Below, in pieces: positions 4,192 to 15,900 of a stretch of DNA of 64,000 nt. The stretch is from assembly GCF_012274265.1 (NCBI RefSeq), contig NZ_JAANYY010000002.1, positions 744,001-808,000 of the forward strand. Reading direction: 5' to 3'. The notes beneath the pieces were generated by a model. That model made no database searches. It saw only the letters and a list, made by a program, of their open reading frames with translations, and was not told where the DNA came from. Both the position numbers and the translations under genes were made by a program. The DNA is from Sphingopyxis microcysteis (GTDB lineage Bacteria; Pseudomonadota; Alphaproteobacteria; Sphingomonadales; Sphingomonadaceae). Within the stretch, counting starts at the first letter, position 1. Each line of letters starts with the position of its first letter.

Positions 4192-5505
4192 ATGCCAATC
4201 GAACTCAAGATGCCCGCCCTCTCGCCGACGATGGAGGAGGGCACGCTCGCCAAATGGCTGGTGAAGGAGGGCGATGAGGTCAAATCGGGCGACCTGCTGG
4301 CCGAGATCGAGACCGACAAGGCGACGATGGAGTTCGAAGCGGTCGACGAGGGCGTGGTCAGCCAGATTCTGGTCGCCGAGGGGACCGACGGGGTGAAGGT
4401 CGGTACCGTGATTGCGGTAATTACGGGCGAGGGTGACGATGCCGGGAGCGCGAAGGCGGCTCCGGCGCCTGCCGTTGCTCCCACCCCTGAACCCGTTCGC
4501 GCTGAGCCTGTCGAAGCGCCGTCCTCATCTTCTCCGGCGGCCGCGGTGAAGGACGGTCCTTCGACAAGCTCAGGACAAACGGAAAAAGGCGATCGCATCA
4601 AAGCCAGCCCGCTCGCCAAGCGCCTTGCCGCCGAACGGGGCATCGATCTCAAGGGGGTGACCGGCACCGGCCCGGGCGGCCGCATCGTCAAGGCCGACCT
4701 CGAAGGCGCGCCCGCAGGCGCCGCGGCATCCGCTCCCGTCGCCCCCGCGCAGGCGGCGGGCGCTGTCGGCACGGCGCCTGCTCCGGCGCCGGCTGGCCCG
4801 ATCCCCGATTTCGGCATTCCGCACGAGGACGAAAAGCTCAGCGGCATGCGCAAGACGATCGCGCGCCGCCTGACCCAGTCGATGCAGGAAGCGCCGCACA
4901 TTTACCTCACCGTCGACATCCGCCTCGACGCGCTGCTCAAGCTCCGCGGCGAGCTCAACGCCAGCCTCGAAAGCCGCGGCGTCAAGCTCAGCGTCAATGA
5001 CATGCTGATCAAGGCGCTCGCGGTCGCACTCGAACGCGTGCCCGCCTGCAATGTCAGCTTCGGCGGCGATGTGATGCGCAAATACAGCCGCGCCGACATC
5101 TCGGTCGCGGTGAGCATCCCGGGCGGGCTGATCACCCCGATCATCACCGACGCGGGCGGCAAGTCGATGTCGAAAATCTCGACCGAAATGGCCGAGCTCG
5201 CGGCGAAGGCGAAGGAAGGCAAGCTCCAGCCGCATGAATATCAGGGCGGCACCGCCTCGATCTCGAACATGGGCATGATGGGGATCAAGCAATTCACCGC
5301 GGTGATCAATCCGCCGCAGGCGATGATCATGGCGATCGGCGCGGGCGAGAAGCGGCCCTACATCGTCGACGACGCGCTCGCGATCGCCACGGTCATGTCG
5401 GCGACCGGCAGCTTTGACCACCGCGCGATCGACGGGGCGGATGGCGCGCTACTGATGAAGACCTTCAAGGAACTGGTCGAGAACCCGCTGGGGCTGGTGG
5501 CTTGA
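4192..5505 (+). CDS. pdhC: Pyruvate dehydrogenase E2, dihydrolipoamide acetyltransferase
   Basis: Transfers acetyl groups from E1-bound intermediates to CoA in the pyruvate dehydrogenase complex. 437 residues in the usual order. One N-terminal lipoyl domain (about 1-80) carries the lipoylated Lys in [14 protein letters not shown] long Ala/Pro linker follows, then an E3/E1-binding domain (about 137-175, [17 protein letters not shown]) and a second linker. The C-terminal acetyltransferase domain (about 205-437) has the active-site [11 protein letters not shown]. The first linker contains an in-frame palindromic repeat encoding GPSTSSGQT-type sequence. lpdA (E3) lies downstream but is separated by a DUF559 cassette; E1 genes are not in the window. 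A small hairpin (GCAGGC-TTG-GCCTGC, 4152-4166) sits in the leader. Confidence 0.95.
4493..4582. repeat. Palindromic repeat inside pdhC (GAGCCTGTCGAAG family)
   Basis: Inverted repeat of about 25-bp arms: the left arm begins CCGTTCGCGCTGAGCCTGTC and the right arm complement begins CCGTTTGTCCTGAGCTTGTC, separated by about 40 bp. It belongs to the same family as the intergenic copies at 15842 and 29140. It is translated in frame as part of the flexible PdhC linker. Confidence 0.8.
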
Positions 5506-5509
5506 TGGA

Positions 5510-5570
5510 CCCCTCTCCCTTCAAGGGAGAGGGAGGGGCCCGCGCGCGTCAGCGCGTGGGAGGGTGAGGG
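5510..5570 (+). repeat. Left inverted repeat of the DUF559 cassette
   Basis: Starts with CCCCTCTCCCTTCAAGGGAG (a hairpin tip), then GGGAGGGGCCC, a variable small hairpin (CGCGC-GTCA-GCGCG) and GGGAGGGTGAGGG. It is the inverted partner of 5916-5973. Its last bases act as the purine-rich ribosome site directly before the GTG start at 5572. Confidence 0.85.
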
Positions 5571-5571
5571 T

Positions 5572-6000
5572 GTGACGGCAGGCTATTCGAAGCAGACGCT
5601 GGAACGTGCCAAATCGCTGCGCCGCTCGCTCACCGAACAAGAGAAGAAGTTATGGGGTGCCCTGCGCGATCGGCGGCTCGGCGGTTTCAAATTTCGTAAG
5701 CAGCAGCCGATTGGACCGTTTATCGCTGATTTCGTCTGTCAGGAACGACGTCTGATCGTCGAGTTGGATGGATCGCAGCACGCTGAATCGCAGGCCGATG
5801 CGCGTCGGGACGTTTTCCTCGATGACAAGGGTTATCGTGTGCTCCGCATCTGGAACAATGAAGTGACTGGAAACATGTCCGGAGTATTGGCGGCGATCTT
5901 GGCCGCGCTTTCGGACCCTCACCCTCCCATTGCTGCGCAATGGGCCCCTCCCTCTCCCTTGAAGGGAGAGGGGATTGATAATGGAGCGAATCTTGGCTGA
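5572..6000 (+). CDS. DUF559 (Vsr-like endonuclease fold) protein in an inverted-repeat cassette
   Basis: 142 residues. The DUF559 domain (about 8-110) has the hallmarks of the family: LRRSLTEQEKKLWGALR, RKQQPIGPFIADFVC, IVELDGSQH and DDKGYRVLRIWNNEV. The fold is of the PD-(D/E)XK/Vsr type, with Asp (IADF) and Glu (IVELD) as likely metal ligands; activity is inferred, not shown. The GTG start immediately follows the left repeat. The tail after about residue 112 (DPHPPIAAQWAPPSPLKGEG) is translated from the right repeat. The gene sits between pdhC and lpdA, which otherwise form a natural unit, so it looks like an insertion. Confidence 0.85.
   Translation: MTAGYSKQTLERAKSLRRSLTEQEKKLWGALRDRRLGGFKFRKQQPIGPFIADFVCQERRLIVELDGSQHAESQADARRDVFLDDKGYRVLRIWNNEVTGNMSGVLAAILAALSDPHPPIAAQWAPPSPLKGEGIDNGANLG
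5916..5973 (-). repeat. Right inverted repeat of the DUF559 cassette
   Basis: Reverse complement reads CCCCTCTCCCTTCAAGGGAG then GGGAGGGGCCC, a small hairpin with a different sequence (ATTGC-GCA-GCAAT), and GGGAGGGTGAGGGT. The outer 32 bases are identical to the left copy, while the small hairpin differs but still pairs. It lies inside the 3' end of the DUF559 frame and ends about 20 bp before the lpdA start. Confidence 0.85.
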
Positions 6001-7390
6001 CACCTCATACGACCTCATCGTCCTCGGCTCCGGCCCCGGCGGCTATGTTGCCGCGATCCGCGCGGCGCAGCTCGGCCTCAAGACCGCGATTGTCGAGCGC
6101 GAGCTGCTTGGCGGCATCTGCCTCAACTGGGGGTGCATTCCCACCAAGGCGCTGCTGCGGTCGGCCGAGATCTATCACTACATGCAGCACGCGGGCGCCT
6201 ATGGGCTGAAAGCCGCCGAGATCAGCGCCGATATCGGTGCGGTGGTGAAACGCTCGCGCGGGGTGGCGAAGCAGCTCAATCAGGGCGTTACGCACCTGAT
6301 GAAGAAGCACAAGATCACCGTCCATATGGGCGAGGGCAAGCTGACGGCGCCGGGCAAGCTGGAGGTCAAGGGCGAGAAGGGAACCGAAACCCTCACCGCC
6401 AAGAACATCATCGTCGCCACCGGCGCCCGCGCCCGCGACCTGCCGTTCGCGCCCGCCGACGGCAAGCGCATCTGGACCTATCGCCATGCGCTGGTGCCGC
6501 CTGAAATGCCCAAGAAATTGCTCGTCATCGGATCGGGCGCGATCGGGATCGAATTTGCGAGCTTCTACAAGGATATGGGCGCCGAAGTGACCGTGGTCGA
6601 AATGCTCGACCGGCTCGTCCCCGTCGAGGATGCCGATGTGTCGGCCTTCCTTGAAAAGGCATTGAAGAAACAGGGCATGACGATCCACACCGGTGCCGGG
6701 GTCGAGGAGCTGAAGGCCACCGCGACCGGAGTCTCCGCCAAGATCAAGGGCAAGGACGGCAAGGTCGAATCGGCCGAGTTCAGCCATGCGATCGTCGCGA
6801 TCGGCATCGTCCCGAATACCGAGAATATCGGGCTGGAAGCGCTCGGCGTGAAGACGACCAAGGGCCATATCGACACCGACGCGATGTGCCGCACCAACGT
6901 CCCCGGCCTGTGGGCGATCGGCGACGTCACCGCGCCGCCGTGGCTTGCGCACAAGGCGATGCACGAATCGATCATCGCGGTCGAGGCGATCGCGGGCAAC
7001 CATCCGCACGCGATGGACGTGCGCAACATCCCCGGCTGCACCTATTGCCGCCCGCAAATCGCCAGCGTCGGGCTGACCGAGGCGAAGGCGAAGGAGCTGG
7101 GCTATGAGGTCAAGGCGGGTACCTTCCCGTTCATCGGCAACGGCAAGGCGATTGCGCTGGGCGAGGCCGAGGGCTTCACCAAGACCGTGTTCGACGCAAA
7201 AACTGGCGAACTGCTCGGCGCGCACATGATCGGCGCCGAGGTCACCGAGCTCATTCAGGGCTATACGATCGGCAAGACCGCCGAGCTGGTCGAGGATGAC
7301 TTCATCGGCACCGTCTTCCCGCATCCGACGCTCAGCGAGACGATGCACGAGGGCGTGCTGGCGGCTTTCGGGCGGCCGCTGCACATCTGA
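5993..7390 (+). CDS. lpdA: Dihydrolipoyl dehydrogenase (E3)
   Basis: FAD-dependent enzyme of 465 residues that reoxidises the lipoyl arms of the pyruvate dehydrogenase complex. FAD-binding GSGPGGYVAAIRAA lies near the N-terminus. The redox-active disulfide is in GGICLNWGCIPTKALL, NAD binding is at VIGSGAIGIEF, and the C-terminal dimer domain has the His-Glu pair in FPHPTLSETMHEG. I prefer a TTG start at 5993: GGAG lies 6 bases upstream and the protein then begins MADTSYDLIVLGSG, as in relatives. An ATG at 5981 and a TTG at 5975 would add four to six residues encoded next to the repeat. It overlaps the DUF559 stop codon. Confidence 0.93.
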   Translation: MADTSYDLIVLGSGPGGYVAAIRAAQLGLKTAIVERELLGGICLNWGCIPTKALLRSAEIYHYMQHAGAYGLKAAEISADIGAVVKRSRGVAKQLNQGVTHLMKKHKITVHMGEGKLTAPGKLEVKGEKGTETLTAKNIIVATGARARDLPFAPADGKRIWTYRHALVPPEMPKKLLVIGSGAIGIEFASFYKDMGAEVTVVEMLDRLVPVEDADVSAFLEKALKKQGMTIHTGAGVEELKATATGVSAKIKGKDGKVESAEFSHAIVAIGIVPNTENIGLEALGVKTTKGHIDTDAMCRTNVPGLWAIGDVTAPPWLAHKAMHESIIAVEAIAGNHPHAMDVRNIPGCTYCRPQIASVGLTEAKAKELGYEVKAGTFPFIGNGKAIALGEAEGFTKTVFDAKTGELLGAHMIGAEVTELIQGYTIGKTAELVEDDFIGTVFPHPTLSETMHEGVLAAFGRPLHI

Positions 7391-15841: not shown

Positions 15842-15900
15842 AGCCCTGAGCCTGTCGAAGGGCGCCTATCCGAGAAGCGCCCTTCGACAGGCTCAGGGCT
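15842..15900. repeat. Palindromic repeat (CCCTGAGCCTGTCGAAGGGC), intergenic copy
   Basis: Perfect inverted repeat: AGCCCTGAGCCTGTCGAAGG on the left and its complement on the right, around TATCCGAGA. It sits between the convergent acyl-CoA dehydrogenase partner and the CoA-transferase gene and could terminate both transcripts. Confidence 0.9.

Follow-up and report, generated by a model that had tools for sequence, protein, structure and literature searches.

A DUF559 nuclease gene between hairpin-bearing inverted arms in Sphingopyxis: a candidate REPtron-like unit

In a window of 64,000 nucleotides (the whole stretch of DNA analysed) from Sphingopyxis microcysteis, a gene of the DUF559 family lies between two long inverted arms in the spacer between pdhC and lpdA. 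We consider it somewhat better than an even bet (probability roughly 0.55) that this cassette works like a REPtron, with a PD-(D/E)XK nuclease in place of the HuH enzyme and acting on its own arms. Several observations speak for this reading: the gene and the arms occur together, cognate arms are dispersed over genomes, the number of arms tracks DUF559 both within genera and across the class, the gene is under purifying selection and its arms are strongly conserved, and the protein has a nuclease fold with invariant residues that are candidates for catalysis. Since this pattern is that of REPtrons and REPINs with a different enzyme, we infer that the DUF559 protein probably binds and cuts the arms and may spread them. 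Specifically, the nuclease would recognise and process its own arms, i.e. the hairpins and the G-rich tail, both around its gene and in gene-less pairs. Cutting would drive the spread via repair or strand transfer, the arm pairs would spread as non-autonomous elements, and the nuclease gene would persist as a resident that changes slowly and is for the most part domesticated.

The observation made in a preliminary description of this DNA is confirmed as one case of a larger pattern, and its interpretation is partly supported.

Structure of the cassette

The cassette had been described as a 464-bp unit with inverted ends whose outer 32 bases are identical, and with inner hairpins that differ in sequence yet both pair. 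Both points hold. An inverted-repeat search delimits the unit at 5510-5973, with outer arms at 5510-5541 and 5942-5973 (32 nt, 100% complementary) and a second inverted pair of 15 nt, also 100%, formed by the tails (Table 1); DNA folding shows that both inner hairpins fold in spite of their unlike sequences. Each arm measures 59-62 nt and comprises two hairpins, one outer and one inner, followed by a G-rich tail; the whole arms reach DNA fold z-scores of -4.4 to -5.6 against shuffles on both strands. When up to 3 mismatches are allowed, the 23-nt hairpin core has only two sites in the window, both in the cassette arms, and none in 100 shuffles.

Table 1. Positions of the cassette components and neighbouring genes in the window
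Feature	Position	Strand	Basis
Upstream neighbour pdhC	4192..5505	+	ORF list
Left arm, outer hairpin, 10-bp stem	5511..5533		Inverted-repeat search, DNA fold
Left arm, inner hairpin	5539..5560		DNA fold
Left arm, G-rich tail; inverted copy 5915-5929	5557..5571		Inverted-repeat search
DUF559 ORF, GTG start, 142 aa; domain = residues 9-113 (5596-5910)	5572..6000	+	ORF list, PF04480 match
Right arm, C-rich tail	5915..5929		Inverted-repeat search
Right arm, inner hairpin	5926..5944		DNA fold
Right arm, outer hairpin, 10-bp stem	5950..5972		Inverted-repeat search, DNA fold
Downstream neighbour lpdA, listed from TTG 5975 (putative start)	5975..7390	+	ORF list

The further claim that the arms enclose a single gene between pdhC and lpdA stands with a small correction: DUF559 does lie between the arms, but its ORF as written continues across the right arm and into the beginning of lpdA. 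The neighbouring ORFs are those that we take to be pdhC and lpdA, names that rest on the preliminary description and the sequence rather than on a family search. Among loci from named genomes, the six nearest, five from Sphingopyxis and one from a Sphingomonadaceae bacterium, share 82-88% identity.

Another repeat, CTTCGACAAGCTCAG and its near forms, has 5 matches against 0.14 expected, with one inverted pair at 4502-4573, within the pdhC coding region, and one farther on, at 15846-15896.

The nuclease

The ORF belongs to DUF559 by its match to PF04480 (E 4.6e-40; 136.3 bits against a curated cut-off of 20.6). Its predicted structure (mean pLDDT 86) was compared with known folds using Foldseek. 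The best match is 3hrl (E 4.8e-9, 46% identity), the second-best is the homing endonuclease I-Bth0305I (3r3p, E 7.8e-5), and a weaker one is Vsr (1vsr, E 7.8e-3). A PDB sequence search returned mostly enterotoxin B chains (16 of 18 rows, E 0.0027-0.013), which we judged to be chance matches; none is found among the 50 fold matches listed.

E24, D53, E64, D66 and H70, together with six more residues, are invariant across 45 sequences and, on the modelled nuclease fold, are candidate catalytic residues. E24, D53 and H70 resemble residues of the Vsr active site, given as E25, D51, H64, H69 and D97 in the available part of PMC12907096; this pairing is our own reading, made with no alignment.

Boxed DUF559 genes at other loci

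This genome contains three DUF559 genes, and all three lie between inverted arms. To extend the count, a gene was called boxed when a strong inverted pair was present within 300 bp of it, and shifted positions served as controls. At the family level, 36/42 loci are boxed, as against 0/317 controls. In this set, L131-L134 were fetched for the arms already observed at these loci, and L135-L140 belong to arm-rich genomes; when these ten, with arms already known in the place or the genome, are set aside, 27 of the remaining 32 (L001-L003 and L026-L054, the best-scoring matches rather than a random draw) reach the threshold. In the genomes G091, G155 and G241, which have 27 DUF559 matches in all, 20 of the 22 tested are boxed (0/220 controls). 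The corresponding figures for the best-scoring loci are 14/28 in the class (0/280 controls) and 15/25 in the phylum (8/250 controls), so that clear arms are absent at half of the class loci and at 10/25 phylum loci. Six truncated loci (L220, L233, L168, L177, L181 and L182) were left out of the three-genome, class and phylum tests.

Among ten named records, seven are boxed, with scores from 20 to 102: three Sphingomonas parapaucimobilis plasmids, Azospirillum lipoferum, Sinorhizobium meliloti and two Deinococcus. An inverted pair at the criterion was not found at the DUF559 genes of the other three, A. brasilense, Shinella and Neisseria gonorrhoeae; around the gonococcal gene the arms are merely imperfect, with a score of 11 where the controls reach as high as 17. 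The S. parapaucimobilis genes (L288, L291, L292) are located between sufB and sufC, between two transhydrogenase genes, and before dnaG. On the two Deinococcus plasmids (L290, L369), the arm-boxed gene is near hpaB and hpaE, and a locus preference may therefore hold in another phylum. Relatives on viral contigs (L293-L315), some of which may be prophage or host DNA, are boxed in 16/19 cases, counted without a control set; the first 24 of 74 loci were taken, and 5 had too little flank.

The arms share structural traits. In 80 arm-bearing cassettes, a hairpin stem of at least 7 is present in 69 (13/307 control stretches) and a G-quadruplex motif in 36 (2/307). The DUF559 copies of a genome are several and divergent, up to 14 in number. 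A general rule of placement inside operons was rejected: the neighbours of 61 family loci have mixed orientations (19 ++, 15 +-, 17 -+, 10 --), in a count that covers loci flanked on each side by a longest ORF and is weakened by long spurious ORFs in GC-rich DNA.

Dispersed arms and arm numbers

Arms both flank DUF559 and occur alone. If up to 3 mismatches are allowed, the hairpin has 14 sites in this genome, of which four belong to DUF559 cassettes and six form three gene-less pairs 140-154 bp apart. G091 has 69 arms, including dispersed gene-less pairs about 60-130 bp apart. For 50 dispersed arm ends of the CCCTCTCCC type in G091, the only type compared, a resident DUF559 cassette is a better match than all of 36 hand-picked outside cassettes in 42, ties in 3 and is worse in 5. 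The comparison included 8 of the 10 DUF559 matches of that genome, and the arms were assigned to two of these eight genes (32 and 18). Rfam gave no match up to E 1.

The number of arms in a genome follows the presence of the nuclease, a match with E up to 1e-30 being called strong. Of 1654 arms in 249 family genomes, 1531 are in the 134 genomes with strong DUF559, 110 in the 83 with weak and 13 in the 32 without. Arms beyond two per gene number 1001 and are spread over 61 of the 217 DUF559 genomes, with at least 5 in 46, whereas none of the 32 DUF559-free genomes reaches 5. In the 36 genera that contain both kinds of genome, strong DUF559 goes with more arms in 29, fewer in 3 and a tie in 4. 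Among 240 alphaproteobacterial genomes from 203 genera, at least 3 arms are present in 34/55 with strong DUF559 and in 6/185 others (odds ratio 48), the search pattern giving less than three arms in the remaining 21 of the 55. Note that such genome counts are not independent of descent. Some DUF559-free genomes also have arms (7/32 in the family, 15/163 in the class).

Conserved spacers with and without the cassette

Across 60 genomes from the genus, DUF559 lies in the pdhC-lpdA spacer in 20; the spacer is empty (0-5 bp) in 12, measures 46-49 bp in 3 and has other fillings in 25. Empty spacers, for which the preliminary description had proposed a search among relatives, thus exist; the unit is not fixed in all relatives, and its arms do occur elsewhere without DUF559. 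The 20 DUF559-filled spacers comprise 7 of class A (the type of the Sphingopyxis window), 3 of class B, 9 of class C and 1 decayed. The arm core CTCTCCC-loop-GGGAGAG is present in 20/20 spacers with DUF559 and in 1/40 without (L101, one arm). A stricter pattern gives 19/20 and 1/40: 18 of the gene-bearing spacers have two copies, the decayed L117 has a single one and L102 has none. L117 itself is a class C copy, decayed in appearance, with one arm hairpin intact. An nrdA match was obtained in 59 genomes, and the nrdA-nrdB spacer was read in 30 of them; it contains DUF559 in 10, and the core is found in 10/10 with the gene and 0/20 without. Since core and gene occur together at both loci, gene and arms act as one unit, in agreement with the initial idea of a package.

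The DUF559-filled and empty alleles, compared by eye, differ by more than the gene-arm unit. Accordingly, no clean insertion junction was seen in the spacers compared, and no target-site duplication was seen by eye at pdhC-lpdA and nrdA-nrdB.

Other contents of these spacers were also recorded. Many of the 25 other fillings at pdhC-lpdA are small ORFs, and this spacer looks like an exchange hot spot. Seven nrdA-nrdB spacers of 120-126 bp without DUF559 (L265, L272, L277, L278, L279, L280 and L284) have a different palindrome pair, rich in CCCCGCGAAAGCGGGG or CCGGCGAAAGCCGG. In L283, a small HNH-nuclease-like ORF, recognised by eye, is located where others carry DUF559.

The gene is under purifying selection. 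In class A, pS is 0.54, pN 0.08 and dN/dS 0.086 (21 pairs), with an arm mismatch of 3.7%; pS is 0.49 in class B and 0.51 in class C, with arm mismatches of 0 and 1-2%, so that conservation is much tighter in the arms than at silent sites of the gene. As a gauge of descent at pdhC-lpdA, the correlation between the pS of DUF559 and that of pdhC was taken; it is -0.38 in class A (21 pairs), 0.97 in class B (3 pairs) and -0.13 in class C (28 pairs).

Arm types and nuclease lineages

We compared arm types with a tree of DUF559 proteins from 60 of the 80 arm-bearing cassettes; 20 were dropped by hand, in most cases since the hairpin reported for them was other than the outer hairpin, and L050 and L158 because the stem was already listed. 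On this tree, in which 30 of 57 inner forks are open, type T2 (CCCCTCCC) requires 1 change versus 8.6 in shuffles, T3 (CCTCCCC) 2 versus 7.7, and T1 12 versus 19.9. All types together require 12 changes versus 25.4, and 0/200 shuffles are that low. T4 (4 versus 3.9) and T5 (5 versus 5.8) do not cluster. Co-sorting is therefore partial: T2 and T3 sort with the DUF559 lineage, whereas T4 and T5 do not.

DUF559 copies also group by locus across genera. In a tree of 68 hand-picked rows, all locus labels together require 4 changes versus 31.3 in shuffles; nrd forms one group (100/97), pdh requires two changes, and acc requires one, with weak support. Because such locus-specific lineages occupy given spacers, the earlier wording "mobile or domesticated" can be narrowed: the unit is better described as domesticated or homing than as one that moves freely.

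Homing or descent is the simpler account of copies that stick to particular spacers across genera, and this makes the main rival a free-standing homing endonuclease. It would cut in or near the conserved neighbour genes of DUF559-free strains, repair would copy the cassette in, and the arms would be regulators or recombination aids. The locus grouping and the homing-endonuclease fold (the second-best match of the model) keep this intronless-homing reading in play, and the patchy presence (20/60 at pdhC-lpdA, 10/30 at nrdA-nrdB) fits it. Intronless homing is described for free-standing endonucleases of phage T4, such as mobE, located between nrdA and nrdB (available part of PMC2988022), and the DUF559 gene is likewise a small, patchy, locus-specific nuclease gene in a conserved-gene spacer; the modelled Vsr-like fold would also be shared with I-Bth0305I. 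However, unlike those endonucleases, DUF559 sits between long inverted arms, and such arms are scattered at gene-less sites as well. Homing leaves unexplained both the gene-less pairs that match resident cassettes and the T2 and T3 arm types that track the nuclease lineage, and some spacers host unrelated lineages (class A versus B and C). We regard it as unlikely. A mixture of REPtron-like action and homing is possible.

Comparison with REPtrons and other systems

In REPtrons, or REPIN-RAYT (TnpA-REP) systems, one nuclease gene is bordered by palindromes, and gene-less inverted pairs are dispersed, according to the accessible parts of PMC8266576, PMC8049555 and PMC3686654. As far as these describe them, the DUF559 cassettes are alike in that the gene is bordered by cognate palindromes, dispersed elsewhere as inverted pairs, and acts as a resident rather than jumping. 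They differ in the enzyme, a PD-(D/E)XK nuclease rather than a HuH (Y1) tyrosine transposase (PF01797), and in the arms, which consist of two hairpins plus a G-rich tail. The GTAG motif of REPtron palindromes is missing from both arms, whichever strand is read; the left inner loop has a single CGTC, and GGAG is present in both arms. With insertion sequences and MITEs, the cassette shares terminal inverted repeats.

A RAYT is the usual repeat-spreading enzyme. The arms might accordingly be a repeat family spread by some other enzyme, with the DUF559 genes as passengers or insertion bystanders, which would agree with the arms seen in a few DUF559-free genomes and with the other small genes that take the same spacers. 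As a mobiliser of the arms, RAYT was rejected: PF01797 has no match in this genome, in agreement with the earlier remark that the unit lacks a recognisable transposase, and it occurs in 36/249 family genomes with a weak arm odds ratio of 2.65, versus 17.5 for strong DUF559. In addition, 39/40 pdhC-lpdA spacers without DUF559 also lack the arm core, and arm type and DUF559 lineage co-sort in part. This explanation is improbable, and the nuclease, which the preliminary description suggested could act on the hairpins, is the best candidate for that role.

A Vsr-like role in mismatch repair, or another housekeeping role for the nuclease, with arms that only control its expression, is very improbable in spite of the purifying selection and of Caulobacter VsrA, a DUF559-containing protein functionally linked with a cytosine methyltransferase (available part of PMC12907096), given that the Vsr model TIGR00632 scores 19.6 bits, under its NCBIfam cut-off of 97.85, that copies are divergent and numerous (up to 14), and that arm pairs far from any DUF559 gene stay unexplained. 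NGO0050 (3hrl) is like the Sphingopyxis protein in belonging to the DUF559 family by fold, and VsrA in having a DUF559 domain; unlike for the boxed Sphingopyxis genes, the main text of the VsrA paper, as available, names no palindrome, inverted repeat or hairpin.

In one open library, DUF559 together with "inverted repeat" was not found, and no DUF559-palindrome system appears among the literature listed there on REP/REPIN, RAYT, MITEs and COG2852. The letters GGGAGAGGG gave no bacterial-repeat title among the matches listed.

Implications

The REPtron-like reading makes a sharp prediction, namely that DUF559 proteins bind arms of their own type. More tentatively, and at slightly less than even odds, DUF559 proteins may be the cognate processing enzymes for a hairpin-plus-G-tail repeat superfamily that spans Alphaproteobacteria, other Pseudomonadota and Deinococcus, and would form a second, separately evolved REP-spreading system based on a PD-(D/E)XK nuclease. 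If true, a common family of unknown function would gain a function, abundant bacterial palindromes that lack an enzyme would have one named, and REP-type repeat systems would have arisen more than once.
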